From a bacterium (GTDB lineage: Bacteria > Armatimonadota > Zipacnadia > Zipacnadales > Zipacnadaceae), in contig JAUVZM010000019.1 of assembly GCA_030602615.1 (NCBI GenBank), positions 1 through 39,129 of the forward strand: DNA of 39,129 nt, written 5' to 3'. The notes under the pieces are model-generated. The model searched no databases and had not been told where the DNA came from. It saw nothing but the letters and a program-made list of their open reading frames with translations. The number at the start of each line of letters is the position of its first letter. Positions within the stretch are counted from its first letter, which is position 1. Position numbers and translations under genes: made by a program. Below, piece by piece: positions 1,211 to 28,000 of this stretch.

Positions 1211-2473
1211 ATGTTAGACCTATCAGATCTGAAGGAAAAGACGGTAGACGAGCTGAAAGAAGTGGCCGCTACTATGGATGTGGCTGGCTACTCGAACCTT
1301 AAGAAATTTGACCTGTGTATGAAGATACTTAAGGCCCAAAGTGAACAAGATGGGAATAAGTATCAGTACGGAGTCCTGGAGGTGCAGGCTGACGGGCGCG
1401 GCTACCTGCGGGTCAACGGTTACGTGCCGGATCCGGCTGTGGATGTCTACGTTGCTGACAGCCAGATTCGCCGTTTCGACCTGCGCACTGGTGACGTGAT
1501 TAGCGGACCGGTGCGGCCGCCTAAGAACAGCGAGCGCTACTGGTCACTGCTGCGGGTGCAGACCATCAACGGCGTCCCTCCTGAAGAGGTTGGGCACCGC
1601 CCTGACTTCGAAGACCTTACCCCGGTTTATCCGGATGAGCGCATTCACCTGGAGACCGACGACCCCACCAACATAACGGGCCGCTTGCTGGACATCATAA
1701 CTCCAATCGGCCGGGGACAACGGGGCCTGATTGTCTCGCCTCCTAAAGCCGGTAAGACCACCATCATTAAGCAGCTTGCTAACTGCATGACCGCCAACTA
1801 TGACGACCTGCGCTTGCTGATCCTGCTTGTTGATGAGCGCCCCGAGGAGGTCACTGATATTGCCCGGTCGGTTGAAGGCGAGGTCATCAGTTCCACTTTC
1901 GACGAACTGCCGGAAAACCATATGAGAGTCGCCGAGCTTGTTCTAACTCGTGCCAAGCGCCTCGTCGAGCAAGGGGAGGACGTGGTGGTGCTACTGGACA
2001 GCATTACCCGCCTGTCACGGGCCAGCAACCTGACTATAGACCCTAGTGGTCGAACGCTCTCCGGAGGGCTAGATCCCATCGCGCTATATCGACCCAAGAG
2101 CTTCCTCGGTGCGGCTCGGAACATCGAAGCAGGCGGAAGTCTCACCATCCTGGCCACTATTCTCGTCGAAACAGGCAGCCGTATGGACGATATGATCTTC
2201 GAGGAATTCAAAGCAACCGGCAATCTTGATCTGATACTCTCCCGGGACCTGGCCGACCGGGGAATATTCCCGGCAGTGGACATCATCCGTTCTTCTACCC
2301 GGCATCAGGAGCTGCTGTTCAATGATGAGGAGATGCAGTCCGTATATCAGCTTCGCCAGGCATTGCACAACATGGAACCTCCTGAGGCTCTGGAAACTCT
2401 ATTGGCCGGGCTGGGCAAGATGAAGACTAACGCCGAGTTCCTCCAGATGGCTGCTGAGTCGTTCGCCAGATAA
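1211..2473 (+). CDS. rho: Transcription termination factor Rho
   Basis: Hexameric RNA-dependent ATPase that ends transcription at rut-dependent sites. The 420 residues match the usual length. An N-terminal helical Rho_N segment (about 1-45) is followed by the RNA-binding cold-shock-like domain (about 50-125: YGVLEVQADGRGYLR) and a RecA-type motor. The P-loop is SPPKAGKTT (about 176-184), Walker B ends at VVVLLDSITRL (about 258-268), and the hexamer-pore region follows. Purine-rich GAGAGG precedes the ATG. It lies directly behind hpt. The window has almost no intrinsic terminators with U-runs, which would suit an organism relying on Rho, although that is inference. No unusual insertion is present in the RNA-binding domain. 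Confidence 0.98.
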   Translation: MLDLSDLKEKTVDELKEVAATMDVAGYSNLKKFDLCMKILKAQSEQDGNKYQYGVLEVQADGRGYLRVNGYVPDPAVDVYVADSQIRRFDLRTGDVISGPVRPPKNSERYWSLLRVQTINGVPPEEVGHRPDFEDLTPVYPDERIHLETDDPTNITGRLLDIITPIGRGQRGLIVSPPKAGKTTIIKQLANCMTANYDDLRLLILLVDERPEEVTDIARSVEGEVISSTFDELPENHMRVAELVLTRAKRLVEQGEDVVVLLDSITRLSRASNLTIDPSGRTLSGGLDPIALYRPKSFLGAARNIEAGGSLTILATILVETGSRMDDMIFEEFKATGNLDLILSRDLADRGIFPAVDIIRSSTRHQELLFNDEEMQSVYQLRQALHNMEPPEALETLLAGLGKMKTNAEFLQMAAESFAR

Positions 2474-2517
2474 CTCCATTACGTCCCGAAGCAGGACCGA
2501 ACGGAGCTGAACCCAAA

Positions 2518-2763
2518 ATGGCAGATGTCACTGTCCCTCAGCGAGCGTTGCCCGGCTCGCTGATACTTTGCCTGCTGCTAGCCACCAGCGCAATCCTCAC
2601 CTCTTGTCGGCCCCAATACTCGTCGGACCGGCGGCTGGCTGGACGGATTGCTGCGCTGTATAGTGCTGCCGATGAAGCGGAACCCCGCGCTATAGTGGAG
2701 CCTTTCAACAACCGGCGGATGGCAGCAATCCTTCGCGAGAAGGCGGAGGCTATGGCAAAATAG
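2518..2763 (+). CDS. Small putative lipoprotein, unknown function
   Basis: This 81-residue protein has a hydrophobic N-terminal segment (about 13-28) ending in a lipobox, LTSC, with the lipidated Cys at about residue 30; the mature part would be about 51 residues. The mature sequence is charged, predicted helical and matches no family I recognise. GGAG lies 11 bases before the ATG. The stop is only two bases before the glycosyltransferase start, so the two genes look translationally linked. It could be an envelope accessory to that glycosyltransferase, which is inference only. The lipobox and tight spacing argue that it is a real gene. Confidence 0.6.
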   Translation: MADVTVPQRALPGSLILCLLLATSAILTSCRPQYSSDRRLAGRIAALYSAADEAEPRAIVEPFNNRRMAAILREKAEAMAK

Positions 2764-2765
2764 CT

Positions 2766-3935
2766 ATGCGAGTAGCCATCTTCACCAATACATATCACCC
2801 GGCCGTCAACGGCGTGGCTAACTGTGTGGCTGCGTATCGGGAGGGACTGCTTGATGCTGGCCACGAGGTCACTGTCTTTGCGCCAGCTCCCCAAGAATAC
2901 GATTCGCGCAGTGATCCCGACAATATTTCCCGCTTTCCGGCGTTGCCGCTTCCCCTGGACATGGACTATTCCATTGCTATGCCGTATTCCTCTGCGGTGA
3001 TGAAAGCTCTTCGGGGTCGCCAGTTTGATGTTGTCCATACTCAGCACCCGGTGTGGGTGGGAGCCTGGGGGGCCTGGTATGCGCGCTGGAGTGACATACC
3101 GCTGGTCACCACCGTTCACACTGAGTACGAACTGTTTGCCCCGCTGGTTCCCCTGCCCACTGCCCTGGTCGAGATGTATCTGAATCTGCGGGTAACCTCT
3201 TACTGCAACAAATGCCAGGTAGTGACCACGCCGGTCCAATCCACTCGTCGCCGGCTCGAAGAACAGGGCGTCACTACGCCGGTCGAGATCCTGCCTAATC
3301 CCATTCGAGTCAGCAATTTTGCCGGGGTAGACGGCAGTAGGGTACGCCAGGAGTTGGGCATTGGCGATGAAGTGGTGTTGATTGGCTTCGTTGGGCGGCT
3401 GTCGCGTGAGAAGAACCTGAGAGTGTTGGTCGAAGCCGTCGGACGGGTGCTGGGCCAGCGCAAAGAAGCTGCCTTCGTGTTGGTGGGAGCCGGACCAGAA
3501 ATGGAGAACATTAGACGGCAGGTCCGTGACATCCCTGGGGGGAAGAGCGTTTCCCTTGTTGGTAGTGTCCCCTATGAAGATATTCCGCCTTATCAGGCGG
3601 CTATAGATGTCATGGTGACGACTAGTCTGAGTGAGACACAACCGCTGGCGTATACGGAGGCGATGGCCGCCGGCACACCGATTGTGGCTCTGCGGACACC
3701 GGGTGCCGCAGATATGGTTGACGACGGCGTCAATGGCCTGCTTAGTGAAGTCGAAGATGGCCCTAAGGGACTGGCCCAGAAGGTATTGAGACTGGTGGAT
3801 GATTCCGCCCTGCGTAGCAAATTGGCCCAGGGGGCGCACCAGTCAGCTCAGCAATTTGACGTGGCCCATGTAACTGATCGATTGGTGGCTATCTACAATC
3901 GCGCCCTCGAGCTAGGCGGCGAGTTGGCACTATAG
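2766..3935 (+). CDS. GT4-family glycosyltransferase (GT-B fold)
   Basis: Retaining GT-B enzyme, most likely transferring a sugar from a nucleotide donor to a lipid or polysaccharide acceptor at the cytoplasmic membrane face. The N-terminal Rossmann half begins MRVAIFTNTYHPAVNGVAN, the glycine-rich loop pattern of GT4 enzymes. The donor-binding half has FVGRLSREKN, then the E-x7-E motif (SETQPLAYTEAMAAGTP, glutamates near 290 and 298). Length (389) is normal. It resembles the group containing MgtA/PimB-like and diacylglycerol glucosyltransferases, but the substrate cannot be read from sequence. It follows a putative lipoprotein gene by two bases. A leader of about 195 bases separates it from carB. 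Confidence 0.9.
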   Translation: MRVAIFTNTYHPAVNGVANCVAAYREGLLDAGHEVTVFAPAPQEYDSRSDPDNISRFPALPLPLDMDYSIAMPYSSAVMKALRGRQFDVVHTQHPVWVGAWGAWYARWSDIPLVTTVHTEYELFAPLVPLPTALVEMYLNLRVTSYCNKCQVVTTPVQSTRRRLEEQGVTTPVEILPNPIRVSNFAGVDGSRVRQELGIGDEVVLIGFVGRLSREKNLRVLVEAVGRVLGQRKEAAFVLVGAGPEMENIRRQVRDIPGGKSVSLVGSVPYEDIPPYQAAIDVMVTTSLSETQPLAYTEAMAAGTPIVALRTPGAADMVDDGVNGLLSEVEDGPKGLAQKVLRLVDDSALRSKLAQGAHQSAQQFDVAHVTDRLVAIYNRALELGGELAL

Positions 3936-9162: not shown

Positions 9163-12100
9163 GGGGCCTCCGGCTTTTCTTCATCTTCGGCAATATCCTC
9201 TTCAGAGATCCAGGGCAGGTGCACCTTCTGATCCGTGGTGTTGCCGGCCTCATCCCACACCCGCACTACGATCTGCTCTGCATCCTCGGGGAGCTGTCCA
9301 GTAGCTATCTCGAAGCTTTCGATCAGTTCGTCGTAGGCGCCATCGGCGGGCTGAGCTGCCCACCACTCATCACTATCCTCGACTTGCCAGGAGACTGAGG
9401 CGATGGCAGTCTGCTCGTCGCTGGCAATGCCTTCCAGGCTTACCTTAGCCTCTTCCTGCTCGCCGCGCGGCGGCTGCATTCTCAGCATTGGCGGTTCGTT
9501 GTCAATGCGTACACCGGTGACTACCTGACTTACTTGCCACTGGCTGTCCGGATTGCTGGGCCGGTCGGTTATGGTTATTTTGATCTCGTAATTGCCGGGT
9601 TCCTGTTCGGTCGTGTCCAGTTCGTATGAGTCTTCTTGGATAGGGCCGGCGATCTGTTCCCATTCTCCGTCGGTCGGCCGCAGATACACGGTGGCGGCAA
9701 TATTGTCATCGTCCGGGTCATCCGCTGACCATTCGATCTTGGCTTTGTTGCGCAGCGCTGCGCCCTGGGTGGGAGCCTTTACCTTCAGCTTGGGCTTCTG
9801 GTTGGCAGGCAGATAGCTGATTCTTATGGCTTTCAAACGAGTATTGGCATTCTCGGTATCCGCCGGAACCTGCACGCGGTATTGCAGGTAACGCCCGGCC
9901 GGCACATCAATTTGCATGCCGCTGTGATACGGACGCGACCAGCTACTCCAACTGCCCTCGTCGCGGTCGCGAGTGTTGCCCGAGCGGCAGTGGACCACGA
10001 CCTCACTGGCCTGCTGGCCTTGCGCCCACCATCGGACGCGCTGCCACTGGCTCAGACGCTCTGCATCCAGTACATCCGAGATATACCGGCCAGTCTCAGC
10101 GCCAGACAAGTTGCATGAAAGCAGCCGGCCGGGGTTGTTGCCGCCGGCGAAGAGCAGACCTTTGCCTCCGGCGGCCAGACACAGGATCGCTCCCGCGTCT
10201 TTGTTGCGATAGACCGTAGTACAGTGTTCATCGTCGGTGAACGTGAGGATGATTCCCTTCGAGGCCGCCCCGCCGTAGACGCGTCCGTCGGCCGCCAGTA
10301 GCGCCAATACAGGGTGTTCGCTATTCTGGTAGATAGCCTGCGGGATGCCGGCCGAATCAATGCGATACACGTAGCCCTTGCTACGCTCACCAAATGTCGC
10401 CGCATACAGCGCGCCATTGCAAGAGACCAGATCTGCTATATCATTGTCACCGGCGTCGAGCACTCCCAGAAGTTGTCGCTGCTGGCCTATCTGGTAGACA
10501 GCGCCGGGCGCCGAGGTGCCTGCGTAGACGACTCCGTCGCGTACAGCGAGGCACAGGACATGGGATTGGGGCACATCAGCGTATAGCGAGTATTTGCCCT
10601 GTTCGTCAACCAGGTAGATGAGTCCGTGCGGGCCGGTGGCGACCAGCAGGCCACCGTTAGGCGCTGGCAGGATGTCCCATATGTATTCGGCGGGAAGCTC
10701 ACAGAATACCTCGCCCTGGTCCTGCTGGGTGATGAGAAAGATCTTCCCCTCCCCGCAGGTCCCTGCGTACAACTGGCCGTCGCTGCCGACCAGAAGCGCG
10801 CTGACCGGCGCTTCCCCGGCTTCAAAGTAAGTTATGAGTTTGCCCTCCTGCCAGGCATATATGTCCCCGTCACTCGCCTCTCCAGCAAAGACAGTGCCTG
10901 ACGAGTCCACAGCCAGGCTCCACCAGGTATTGCCCGGTGCTGTCACCTCCACTTGCCACGGGGGCGTGGTAATCAGCAGGCCGTCGTCGCGCACACCCAG
11001 GCCGGCGAGAGTGCCATCTTCGTAGTCTTCAGGTGAATCGTGCAGCCACGAGCTACTGCCCCGAATGACCTTGCCATCGGCCTCCTTCTCTTCTTCCTTT
11101 GCTTCAGTCTTCTTTTCTTCTTCGGTCTCACCGGGAGCTTCCTGCTTGGCTTTTTCCAGTAGTTCCTTGATCTCCTCGGGCATCGGGGGCATTTCGGGCT
11201 GGAGCTGTTTGACTGCTGGCGGTAGTGGGGGCTGATCCACCTGCTTGCTGGCAAAAGCAGAGCGGGCCCACCACATTGCCGACGGCACCCGGCCGCTTGC
11301 AATGGCTCCAACCCATTCTGAGCTTTCCCCGGTGCTGGGCATCGCCGGGCCACCTGGGCCAGGGGGGGCCCCCCTCGACGGTATTCTTAGTGTGGCCCGC
11401 TCGCCCTGGCGATCTTCCGTCGGTAGCATCATCACGGCCAGGCCGTCCAGCACATACGGGGTATCAATGACCTCGGACAGTTCCGAGTAGCCTGTGGCGA
11501 TGTCCGTACGCGTAGCTGATGAGATGACAGACACTGCTGTCTTCGGCAGATTGTTGAGCAGTATATCGCCGATTCGCAAGCCCACCGTGGGCATGGCAGC
11601 CAGCGTTAGCAGTTGCGTGTTTTGCTCCCTCTGCTGGTACTCGTTGATGACTGTTTCCAGCTTATTAAACTCCGGGGTCAACAGCCGGAGGGTCGAGCGC
11701 AGCATCCAGCCGTAGCCGCCGCTGCTGACCGCCAGGCGCAGGTAGCCTTTGGGCAGCTCCAGAGGCATATGCAGCCGAACCACTTTCTCAGTTGCTTCTT
11801 CACCGATCGGGCGGATTAGCACATGCAAAGTGACGTCTTCTCCAGCGCGAGCGACGGCCTCTTCGGCCCAGACTCGCTCAATAGTGGCAGTGCGGTTCTC
11901 GCGGCTGATCGTGGCGGACAGTTTTACGGCGCTGACCCGCTGGGGGGTGAAGCGATTCTTCTCCAGCAGCGTGACCGTCGACAGCATATCCCATAGGATG
12001 TCGAAAGACGGTTCCCCTTGGTATGCGAAGGTATCGGTTCGGCTGACCGTCGAACCTTTTTCGCCCTCGACGGTAAAGGAGACTTCCACGGTGCCTTCGT

Positions 12101-24142: not shown

Positions 24143-24979
24143 TTAACCCCAGGCGGCCTGGTGAATTGCCTGTAATCTCTCCAACAGGGGACGCAGTTCA
24201 TCAAGTGGCACCATATTAGGGCCGTCGCACGGCGCCTCATCGGGTCGGGGGTGGACCTCCAGGAAGATGCCGTCCACGCCGGTCGCTACCGCGGCTCGGG
24301 CCAGCGGGGCGACGAACTGGCGCTGACCGCCGGAAGCACCGTCCGCCCCGCCCGGCAGTTGTACGCTGTGGGTGGCATCAAAGATGACAGGACAGCCAAA
24401 ACTTCGCATTATTACCAGGCTCCGCATATCCACCACTAGGTTGTTGTAGCCAAAGCTGGTGCCTCGCTCGGTGACTATCACCTGCTGGTTACCTGTGGAG
24501 GTAACCTTCGCAATTGCGTGCGGGATGTCGGCGGGCGAAAGGAACTGCCCCTTCTTGATGTTTACTGGCAGGCCGGTGCGCCCCGCTTCGATCAGCAAAT
24601 CGGTCTGCCGGCATAGAAACGCCGGAATCTGCAAAATATCGGCCACCTGCGCCGCCTCGGCGACCTGCACCGTCTCGGGCACATCAGTCAGCAGCGGCAG
24701 GCCGCTGGCCTCTTTTACGGCGGCTAGAATTTCCAGTCCCTCCTGCCATCCTGGCCCGCGTGGCGAGCTTACCGAGGTGCGATTGGCTTTGTCATAGGAA
24801 GCCTTGAATATCAGGGGCATCGCCAGTGAGGTGGCCAATTCTGCCAGGCGCAGGGCGATAGCAACGGTGGTATCGTAGTCTTCCACCAGACAGGGGCCAG
24901 CAATGAGTGATAGCTGAGCACCACCGATACGGAACTTGCCGTCAGCCACCTCGATTTGCCGCACCTTGCCAGATACCAC
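24143..24979 (-). CDS. kdsA: 3-deoxy-8-phosphooctulonate synthase (KDO-8-P synthase)
   Basis: Condenses phosphoenolpyruvate with arabinose-5-phosphate to KDO-8-phosphate; TIM barrel. 278 residues with SLIAGPCLVED, FKASYDKANRTS (PEP and A5P contacts), GLEILAAVKEASGLPLLTDV, QIPAFLCRQTDLL, VNIKKGQFLSP, TERGTSFGYNNLVVDMRS and a C-terminal IFLEVHPRPDEAPCDGPNM. The start is GTG 24977-24979, sharing its last G with the kdsB stop (TAGTG), with GGAGGAAG upstream. The metal-site residue aligned with the Asn/Cys switch was not assigned with confidence, so metal dependence is left open. Confidence 0.97.
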   Translation of the reverse strand: MVSGKVRQIEVADGKFRIGGAQLSLIAGPCLVEDYDTTVAIALRLAELATSLAMPLIFKASYDKANRTSVSSPRGPGWQEGLEILAAVKEASGLPLLTDVPETVQVAEAAQVADILQIPAFLCRQTDLLIEAGRTGLPVNIKKGQFLSPADIPHAIAKVTSTGNQQVIVTERGTSFGYNNLVVDMRSLVIMRSFGCPVIFDATHSVQLPGGADGASGGQRQFVAPLARAAVATGVDGIFLEVHPRPDEAPCDGPNMVPLDELRPLLERLQAIHQAAWG

Positions 24980-25749
24980 TATTCTTCCTCCATGATTCGC
25001 CGCACCAGTTCGAGATCTTCGGGCGTGTCTACGGAAATGCCCTGGTATTTCACTTCAATTACCTTGATTGGACAGCCGTTTTCCAGCGCCCGCAACTGTT
25101 CAAGCCCCTCGGTAACTTCCAGAGGTGTTTGGGGCAGTGATGATAGCCACAGCAAAGTTGTGCGCGTGTACGCGTACAGCCCGAGGTGCCACAGCGGCCA
25201 CAACCCAGACTGCGGGTGCTGTCTGGGTCTATTATCAGGCCACTCGGGGCAGGTGTCAAGCCGAAAGTAGGGGATAGGAGCTCGCGAAAAGTACAGGGCA
25301 AAGCCTTCTTTGTCTACCACCACCTTCACCACCGAAGGTTTAAGGTGGTTGCTGCAGTCTTCCAGTCGAGTTGCCAGCGTGCTCATCCGCAGGTCGGGGA
25401 TGGTGGCAAACGGCTCGACCAGGGCATCTATCGCTGCTGGCTTAATCAGCGGCTCATCGCCCTGGATATTGACTACTACATCGCATTCAAGGTCCTCAGC
25501 TACCTCTGCGATGCGGTCGCTGCCGGACTTATGCTCCGGCGAAGTCATTACGGCTTGGCCGCCAAAGTCCCGGACGACCTGGGCAATATGCTCGTCGTCG
25601 GTGGCGACCAGCAGCTCATCAAGACTCTGCGCTTGGCTGGCGCGTTGGTAGACGTGCTGTATCATCGGCTTGCCAGCAATATGGGCCAACACCTTGCCAG
25701 GCAGACGCATCGCGCCGTAGCGGGCCGGTATTATGCCTACAATCTTCAC
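24979..25749 (-). CDS. kdsB: CMP-KDO synthetase (3-deoxy-manno-octulosonate cytidylyltransferase)
   Basis: Activates KDO with CTP for lipopolysaccharide inner-core assembly, evidence for an LPS-bearing outer membrane. 256 residues, with the nucleotide-binding start VGIIPARYGAMRLPGK, ATDDEHIAQVV, TSPEHKSGSDRIAEV, VVNIQGDEPLI and YFSRAPIPYFR. GTG at 25747-25749 is preferred because AGAGGAG lies 11 bases upstream and the product starts right at the conserved PARY strand; ATG 25776 would put that ribosome site inside the gene. It follows the broken rsmE and probably shares the rpoZ promoter. Confidence 0.96.
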   Translation of the reverse strand: MKIVGIIPARYGAMRLPGKVLAHIAGKPMIQHVYQRASQAQSLDELLVATDDEHIAQVVRDFGGQAVMTSPEHKSGSDRIAEVAEDLECDVVVNIQGDEPLIKPAAIDALVEPFATIPDLRMSTLATRLEDCSNHLKPSVVKVVVDKEGFALYFSRAPIPYFRLDTCPEWPDNRPRQHPQSGLWPLWHLGLYAYTRTTLLWLSSLPQTPLEVTEGLEQLRALENGCPIKVIEVKYQGISVDTPEDLELVRRIMEEE

Positions 25750-25780
25750 AGCGTATTTGTCTCCTCTTTGGATCATATAT

Positions 25781-26002
25781 CTAGATTGTGGAAGCTACGA
25801 TGGCTGCGGTCTCGGCGCGCATAGTACGCGGGGCCAGGTTTGCTTCTTCCCGGCCTGCACTGGTGGCTGTTTCCACTTCCGGGACGGTAAATCCTCCCTC
25901 CAGGCCCACGAAGATGCTCAGACGGTGGGTGCTGAACGAACAGACGCGATACGGGTTTGCTCCTCGTTGGGGGCGGCCGGGCAGTACTAACTGCTGTAGT
26001 GC
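25781..26002 (-). pseudogene. rsmE: C-terminal remnant of 16S rRNA m3U1498 methyltransferase
   Basis: The minus frame ending in TAG 25781-25783 encodes IFVGLEGGFTVPEVETATSA, then APRTMRAETAA close to the end. These are the SPOUT-knot signatures of RsmE (VGPEGGF and LGxRILRxETA), here with P-to-L and other changes. No usable start lies between the prmA stop (26005) and the motif, and roughly the first 165 of about 240 residues are gone. Position is right for rsmE, which often follows dnaJ-prmA. A working copy would have to be elsewhere. Confidence 0.75.
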
Positions 26003-26004
26003 GA

Positions 26005-26916
26005 TTACTGGGTATTGCCGGGGCGCTCGGCAACGATGGCGACCCAGCTTCCCTGGACGCGGGTCTCTGTCACCCACAAGCCAGCCTGGCGCAGCGTTGA
26101 AGTGACTCGGTCGGCACGTACAACTGGAATGCCCGACACTACCACACAGCCACCCCTGGCAGTGTGTTGCGCCAGATTGCCGCTCAACGCGACGATCGTG
26201 GGTGTATTGATATTGGCCAGGACAATATCGAACTGCTCGCCAGTAGCCTTCAGGGCCTCGCCGAGGATTACCTTCACTTGCCCGGCCACCAAGTTATCTG
26301 CAGCATTGGCCTGAGCTATCTGCACTGCGATGGGATCATTGTCGATGGCAACTGCTGTTGCCGCGCCTAACTTTACCGCTGCGATGCTCAATATTCCTGA
26401 ACCGCAGCCAACGTCAGCGACTGTGCAACCGGGACGAATGTTATCTTCGAGTACCTCCAGGCACGATTGGGTGGTAGGGTGGTTGCCGGTGCCGAAGGCC
26501 ATCTGCGGGTCCATCTCGATAACAATGTCATCATCGAAAGCAGGCAGGGACCCATCGGTGGGCGGCCAGGTATGCCAGGAGGGCTTTATTACCAGTCTTC
26601 TTCCCACTCGCAGAGGCCGGTACGAGTCTCGCCACTCTCCCAGCCAGTCAGCTTCCGCAACTTCGCTGACGCTAAGCTGAAAGGCACCGGCCATTCCCAG
26701 ATTCGCCGCCAGTTCGCTAAATTGCTCGCGCAGCTCAGCTTCGGCGTTTGGCTGGTGACCATAAAGGTATCCGGTGATCGTCATCTGCTCATCGGATTCA
26801 GTCAGACTGACTCCCCGGCCGGTAGCCTCGACCAGCAAGCTAGCGACACTTTCAGCCGCCAACGGAGGGACTCGCACGTGGATTACTCGCCATTGTCGGG
26901 GGGTGGCTATGGGCAA
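26005..26916 (-). CDS. prmA: Ribosomal protein L11 methyltransferase
   Basis: AdoMet-dependent trimethylation of ribosomal protein L11. The N-terminal L11-recognition domain begins WRVIHVRVPPLAAESVAS; a linker with EADWLGEWRDSYRPLRVGRR leads to the Rossmann core: EMDPQMAFGTGNHPTT, VADVGCGSGILSIAAVKLGA (AdoMet loop), AIDNDPIAVQIAQANA and VLANINTPTIVAL. I chose TTG 26914-26916 (303 residues), eight residues before the conserved Trp. A TTG at 26991 would overlap dnaJ by 29 bases and add a proline-rich stretch the family lacks. It lies between dnaJ and the rsmE remnant. Confidence 0.92.
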   Translation of the reverse strand: MPIATPRQWRVIHVRVPPLAAESVASLLVEATGRGVSLTESDEQMTITGYLYGHQPNAEAELREQFSELAANLGMAGAFQLSVSEVAEADWLGEWRDSYRPLRVGRRLVIKPSWHTWPPTDGSLPAFDDDIVIEMDPQMAFGTGNHPTTQSCLEVLEDNIRPGCTVADVGCGSGILSIAAVKLGAATAVAIDNDPIAVQIAQANAADNLVAGQVKVILGEALKATGEQFDIVLANINTPTIVALSGNLAQHTARGGCVVVSGIPVVRADRVTSTLRQAGLWVTETRVQGSWVAIVAERPGNTQ

Positions 26917-26962
26917 CTCACCGCTCTTGGTATTGGTAGCAATGCTCGGTGGCGGGTTGTGG

Positions 26963-28000
26963 CTATTGGGAATTGCGCTGCTCAGCGGCAAGTTCGCGAA
27001 GCAGTTCGTGCTGCCGGGTGGTCAGGCGATTGGGAACTGCTACCTGGATATGCACGATTAGGTCGCCGCGTCGCGGTGAATCCATGTCCACAACTCCGCA
27101 TTCAGCGACCTTCAGCTCTGTGCCCGGCTGAGTGCCCGGTGGTATCTGCAGCTTGGCCTCACCGTCAAGTGTGGGAATTGTTATCGTCTCGCCCAGAGCG
27201 GCCTGTGTAAAACTGATCGTCAGATCCGTATGCAGATCCCGGCCCTCGCGCTCAAACAGTTCATGGGGCTCAACGTGTACTACCACGTACAGATCGCCGC
27301 TGCGCCCCTCTGAGACAGCGTCGCCGGCGCCGCGCAGTACCAACTCTTGGCGGTCGGCGATGCCAGCGGGGGTGGAGATTTCTATCTCTTCATCAACTTC
27401 CCCCACACCTTGCCCAGCGCACGCTTGACAGACCTGTTCAGCCATTTCCCCCTGTCCGCCGCAGTCCGGACAGACGGTAACGGTTGTCATCACGCCCATA
27501 AAGGTGCGTTGCTGGCGGCGAACCTGCCCGATTCCGTTGCAGGTCAGGCAGCGTCTGGTTCCGGTACCTGGCTCCCTGCCGCTTCCGCTGCAGCGCTGGC
27601 ACTGGCCGATCCGCTGGTATTTGAGGGTGCGACTGGCGCCGGTAAGTACTTCCGCCAGGCTGATGGTTACCTCTGCCTGGATATTGTGTCCGCGAGTTCG
27701 CCGCGAGGTCCGTGCAAACGGGGAGCCACCGAAGGCTTGCTCAAAGATCTCAAAGATATCGGGCATCCCTCCGGGGAACCAGTCGCCGGGCGCTCCGCCC
27801 CGGTCGTATTGCCGGCGCTTCCTCGAATCTGACAGCACGGCGTAGGCTTCGCTGATCTGCTTGAACCTGCGCTCAGCGCTCGGGTCGCCGTTGTTCACAT
27901 CCGGGTGATACTTGCGGGCAAGGCGACGGTAAGCTCGTTTAATTTCCGTATTGGAGGCTCCCGGCTCAACGTCCAGAACCTCATAGTAATCCGTGGGCAC
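26963..28000 (-). CDS. dnaJ: Chaperone DnaJ (Hsp40)
   Basis: Co-chaperone that stimulates DnaK ATPase. 345 residues: J-domain 3-70 with YHPDV (HPD at 32-34), a short Gly/Phe region with [13 protein letters not shown], then the zinc domain with all four Cys motifs ([32 protein letters not shown]), and two C-terminal substrate-binding domains. It is a little shorter than the classical 370-380 because the G/F linker is brief. The start is GTG 27998-28000 with no clear ribosome site. dnaK and grpE are not adjacent; rpoZ lies 41 bases upstream. Confidence 0.97.

Follow-up and report, generated by a model that had tools for sequence, protein, structure and literature searches.

The 228-base gap between prmA and kdsB in the window (the whole stretch of DNA that was analysed, 39,129 nucleotides, contig C46 of genome G000) very probably holds a unitary pseudogene of rsmE, the gene for the 16S rRNA m3U1498 methyltransferase, at the ancestral site prmA-rsmE-kdsB. 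An intact orthologue occupies this site in relatives, the disabling lesions are shared with a second genome, the surviving codons are unconstrained, and no copy was found elsewhere in the genome, which is 93% complete. G000 is a draft of 2.45 Mb in 83 contigs (completeness, 93.2%). Among the genomes compared with it, G001, G002, G003, G004, and G006 belong to the same genus and G008 and G011 to the same family, and the closest relative is G006 (89% identity in PrmA and 94% in KdsB). Candidatus Zipacnadia is a class of Armatimonadota according to a published description (PMC10290634). The genus of G000 is placed in Candidatus Zipacnadia, from which we infer the class of G000 itself.

The genes around the gap form a leftward unit in the order dnaJ, prmA, gap, kdsB, and kdsA, names that we assign by recognition of the translations. 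The upstream neighbor, prmA (positions 26005 to 26991, minus strand), is an intact open reading frame with orthologues in 20 of the 21 genomes searched, and its start codon is uncertain. The downstream neighbor, kdsB (24979 to 25776, minus strand), is likewise intact, as judged from its reading frame, orthologues, and alignment; its start is likely the GTG at 25749-25747, as in G002. An AGGAG at 25761 to 25765 (minus strand), retained in G000, G006, G002, and G003, is the likely ribosome-binding site of kdsB.

The first-pass annotation had recognized the C-terminal knot motifs of RsmE, VGLEGGF and MRAETAA, in this gap, and we confirmed that both lie within 25781-25933, on the minus strand. The motifs belong to a 3' remnant of rsmE (25769 to 25933, minus strand), which was identified by a match to Pfam PF04452 (profile positions 114-162 or 114-163 of 165; 40-42 bits; E values of 3.5e-10 to 6.6e-11) and by alignment. 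With intact G002 RsmE as the query, residues 192-246 of its 255 residues matched the remnant at an E value of 1.1e-13 with one TAG stop inside the match. The match to RsmE is not due to chance. The stop itself (25781 to 25783, minus strand) was found in the open reading frame list, the alignment, and the RsmE query search.

RsmE (YggJ) consists of a PUA domain (PF20260) and a SPOUT domain (PF04452). The remnant occupies the position that the intact genes of G002, G003, G008, and G011 have in the gene order, and the last third of its SPOUT domain is still recognizable; it differs from RsmE in lacking the PUA domain, most of the SPOUT domain, the proline of the GPEGG loop, and any intact frame from a start codon, and in carrying a TAG ahead of the C terminus. 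PF20260 matched the G002 protein and none of the window frames, and the SPOUT match is confined to positions 114-163 of the 165-position profile. The loop reads GPEGG in G002, G003, G008, and G011, VGLEGG in G000, and GGVEGG in G006, so that the proline has been replaced by leucine in G000 (codon 25903-25901) and by valine in G006. The N-terminal PUA-like domain is needed for methylation by RsmE, according to PMC9508554. The 3' end is damaged as well, by the TAG and by a 25-base deletion directly ahead of the kdsB ribosome-binding site.

The same annotation held that the N-terminal two-thirds of the gene and any start codon were missing. The loss of the PUA domain and of most of the SPOUT domain stands, whereas the damage looks like an internal deletion and not like simple removal of the 5' part, since a 5' piece can be aligned as well. 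Past the prmA stop, 70 bases (26004 to 25935) show moderate similarity to the G002 sequence that comprises the prmA-rsmE spacer, the ribosome-binding site, and the first six codons of rsmE. We assign 25953 to 26004 (minus strand) as a probable remnant of the spacer, including the former ribosome-binding site of rsmE (AGGAG, 25964-25960), on the strength of moderate alignment with G002 and G003, and 25935 to 25952 (minus strand) as the probable remnant of the first six codons, in which the alignment suggests that the start codon has become GTA and that the frame differs from that of the 3' piece. Shuffled sequences scored equally well in 11 of 5,000 trials for G002 and 91 of 5,000 for G003, figures that carry the choice of trying the leader and first codons only after comparison with the gene body had failed. 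In that comparison, the 62 bases that precede the 3' remnant resembled neither the whole of rsmE nor its bases 470-590 (for G002, 434 and 456 of 500 shuffles, respectively, were equally good; for G003, 194 and 162 of 500). A position control backed the 5' assignment with G002, where the best windows among 60 were at the rsmE start, and gave it no backing with G003, where, among 59 windows, the start scored 20 and the best window elsewhere 26. Thus, the rsmE gene of G000 has probably lost about 180 codons from its interior and, in addition, its start codon, and its 3' end has been eroded.

The first-pass annotation had called for comparison with relatives. Between prmA and kdsB, intact rsmE genes of 255-261 codons are present in G002 and G003, which share the genus of G000, and in two other members of the family, G008 and G011. 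A full rsmE was found in 14 of the 21 genomes searched and adjoins prmA on one contig in 12 of these 14 (including G010, counted with only a C-terminal piece of prmA), and in G019 and G020 the two genes are on different contigs. G006 has the same wreck as G000: in both genomes, similarity to rsmE begins again near codon 190, and an identical deletion has removed 25 bases at the 3' end. Each genome also has damage of its own, namely, the TAG in G000 and, in G006, a one-base deletion and the disappearance of the 5' leader; a search of G006 with intact RsmE returned two pieces at this site that overlap and lie in different frames. Since the two deletions are shared, the gene was most simply broken in a common ancestor.

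These comparisons also bear on the case that had been named as a refutation, namely, that some 500 bases were dropped in assembly and that the real genome carries a full rsmE. G000 is indeed a fragmented draft of 83 contigs. Against this, both deletions recur in G006, which is a separate genome and is damaged further, and a collapse in one assembly is unlikely when two genomes share the lesions. Moreover, substitutions and a stop are not products of collapse, the remnants of G000 and G006 have diverged at an unconstrained rate, and the corresponding junctions of G001 and G004 have no rsmE. An assembly collapse is therefore scarcely credible.

We compared the remnants of G000 and G006 by rsmE codon position and counted 7 differences in 54 first positions, 11 in 52 second positions, and 12 in 53 third positions. 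The second positions of prmA and kdsB differ at only 14 of 549 sites (P = 1.3e-6 versus the 11 of 52 in the remnant), whereas their third positions differ at 83 of 549, which is not different from the remnant total of 30 of 159 (P = 0.27). The intact rsmE genes of G002 and G003 are constrained, with 48, 45, and 109 differences at positions 1, 2, and 3, respectively, over 255 codons. Thus, the remnant evolves without codon constraint, at the rate of the third positions of its neighbors.

An open frame of 98 codons, which starts with a GTG at 26077 inside prmA and overlaps the prmA end, runs across the remnant, and the bases around the AGGAG ahead of kdsB are conserved; the leftover might accordingly function, either as a short gene or as a regulatory spacer of kdsB, instead of being debris. 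This is very improbable. The frame is broken in G006 by the one-base deletion, the remnant has no codon-position bias, and we rejected a functional short open reading frame on these grounds together with a simple consensus scan, in which no promoter-like or terminator-like site appeared in 25700-26100. The scan speaks equally against a regulatory spacer, as does the absence of the leader stretch from G006.

Under the preferred reading, a unitary pseudogene, the large deletion, which extends to about codon 190, and the 25-base deletion at the 3' end would have arisen in the common ancestor of G000 and G006, and the TAG in G000 and the one-base deletion and leader loss in G006 would represent later decay. 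The deletions end at the prmA stop and at the kdsB ribosome-binding site, and therefore the flanking genes can keep working. Deletions that spare both neighbors would be expected if only those genes were under selection.

In G001 and G004, prmA and kdsB meet at a junction without rsmE, the distance between the prmA and kdsB matches being about 87 and 33 bases, respectively. In a KdsB tree of eight rows (G007 and G010 were left out), G000 and G006 are sisters, joined in turn by G002 and then by G003, and G001 and G004 fall outside in an order that is open (bootstrap supports, 93-100). The retention of rsmE in G002 and G003 makes its loss in G000 and G006 an event distinct from the one that left G001 and G004 without it, and rsmE has been lost at least twice in this genus. 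The gap of G001 (L036, 1655-1765) contains a stretch like the tail of G003 RsmE (score, 44; 0 of 2,000 shuffles equally good); against G002, this stretch aligned elsewhere (score, 30; 120 of 2,000 shuffles equally good). It may perhaps be a second, more eroded rsmE relic, for which the alignments are suggestive only. No rsmE trace was recognized by eye in the gap of G004. The genus thus displays the loss of rsmE in unusually clear steps, since some members have an intact copy, some a wrecked one, and others one that is almost or entirely erased.

It had also been proposed that either m3U1498 methylation was lost or a second rsmE copy exists elsewhere. Neither PF04452 nor the G002 RsmE query detected RsmE-like sequence beyond the remnant in G000, of which about 7% is missing, and loss of m3U1498 is therefore expected. 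We infer that U1498 is unmethylated in this organism that RsmE is dispensable in the lineage, and that rsmE was lost separately in the G001/G004 part of the genus. There is precedent for such loss. According to PMC4014445, RsmE is patchily lost in Mollicutes, some members of which lack it and keep enzymes of the RsmA and RsmH types. The lineage of G000 differs from these organisms, as they appear there, in its genome of about 2.4-3 Mb, which is not that of a sub-Mb parasite, in that the gene remains visible, and in a change of the neighboring rRNA pair. Among the 15 genomes of the family, PF01795 (RsmH type) was matched in 12, including all 6 good ones (the G000 match is partial), and PF00398 (RsmA type) in all 15, some by weak hits.

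Across the phylum, PF04452 was matched in 240 of 291 genomes and, at a cut-off of at least 90% completeness and at most 5% contamination, in 167 of 194, the G000 remnant being counted as a match. At that cut-off, all four genomes of the genus are without a working rsmE, and 24 of 190 genomes elsewhere in the phylum have no match (Fisher P = 3.6e-4, relatedness ignored). No surveyed genome of families f33 (eight genomes), f38 (eight), f24 (four), or f12 (two) had a PF04452 match, which suggests that entire families of Armatimonadota lack rsmE.

The pseudogene is thus ordinary and has precedent, and the part worth following up is an exchange in the rRNA. 16S rRNA was found in 6 of the 15 family genomes, at full length in G000, G004, G006, and G009 and as partial genes without the 1404-1497 region in G008 and G011; it was not found in the assemblies of G001, G002, G003, and G005. 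The three genomes without a working rsmE (G000, G004, and G006) read CCGCC-T-GTC and AAGTC-A-TAAC, whereas G009, which has rsmE, reads CCGCC-C-GTC and AAGTC-G-TAAC. In G000, these sites lie at 9241-9257 and 9327-9342 of C4, a contig other than the one studied here. We take them to be E. coli positions 1404 and 1497, the pair beside U1498, an assignment consistent with the Rfam alignment, in which U1404-A1497 is still a standard pair. In PMC3900107, C1404 and G1497 are called universally conserved, and disruption of the pair impairs tRNA binding according to work cited there; the genus differs from this description of 16S helix 44 at the same positions, with the pair exchanged to U-A and not disrupted. 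In the literature on these positions that we could cover, with subscription journals mostly out of scope, no report of a natural U1404-A1497 pair was found.

The U1404 pattern occurred in 4 of the 291 phylum genomes (G000, G004, G006, and G036), with A1497 on the same four contigs and no others matched. The C1404 pattern occurred in 120 of 291, including G036, and 168 matched neither 1404 pattern. G036 belongs to another family, is rsmE positive, and comes from a bin rated 8% contaminated; its U1404-A1497 gene lies on contig C374 (L160), and its C509 copy and a 273-base piece on C260 have C1404. The C374 gene groups with G004 (95.1% identity; support, 0.968) and the C509 copy with G016, a congener of G036 (support, 1.000), for which reason we take C374 to be a stray contig of the genus of G000 and its presence in G036 to be a probable binning error. 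On this count, each of the four genus-type 16S genes detected, that on C374 included, carries U1404-A1497 where C1404-G1497 would be expected. The exchange is on both sides of the 16S split between G000/G006 and G004/C374 and is therefore most simply older than the losses of rsmE.

Could the exchange explain these losses? RsmE acts on assembled 30S subunits, according to PMC9508554, which makes a causal link attractive, and we considered that U1404-A1497 rendered methylation by RsmE useless or impossible and so led to its repeated loss in the genus. The restriction of U1404 with A1497 to the four genus-type genes, with no other matched contig among the 291 genomes, the lack of a working rsmE in all four good genus genomes as against 24 of 190 without a match elsewhere, and the probable priority of the exchange all speak for such a link. 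RsmE was absent in all three U1404 genomes and in 12 of 120 C1404 genomes (P = 0.0015, with related genomes treated as independent and G036 counted on the C1404 side only; had it been placed with the U1404 genomes, the proportion would be three of four). Those 12 genomes (G015, G031, G047, G059, G103, G116, G122, G156, G180, G250, G252, and G254), which have no PF04452 match, argue the other way: loss needs no exchange. Besides, G002 and G003 keep a constrained rsmE and probably inherited the exchange, which therefore does not force loss, and the genomes are related, so that perhaps two or three losses followed one exchange. We regard the link as possible yet doubtful. The full history, in which the genus is a natural exception to C1404-G1497, a compensated U1404-A1497 pair arose in its ancestor and made methylation by RsmE unprofitable or impossible, and rsmE then died at least twice, strikes us as rather improbable on present evidence; if true, it would mean that the methyl group on U1498 tunes a geometry set by the 1404-1497 pair. 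The genus nevertheless offers a natural experiment on the role of m3U1498 and on the fixity of the decoding site, with the exchange and the enzyme predicted to occur together in G002 and G003 and the exchange without the enzyme in G000, G004, and G006. Universal 16S primers spanning position 1404 would presumably mismatch this genus.

The first-pass annotation had further described a 44-codon stump as a second decayed gene of the unit; we sought it only between rpoZ and purM and did not locate it there, so that the proposal of two decayed genes in the unit finds no support here. At that place, contig C25 of G006 (L181, about 1816-3843) carries approximately 2 kb that are absent from G000, G002, and G003 in the aligned stretch, with open reading frames of 312 and 201 amino acids that have the look of membrane proteins by eye. 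In G005 (contig C24), prmA has an 82-base deletion relative to G000 that shifts its frame, close to the contig end (L037, about 2020-2120), and this reflects either decay or an assembly fault.
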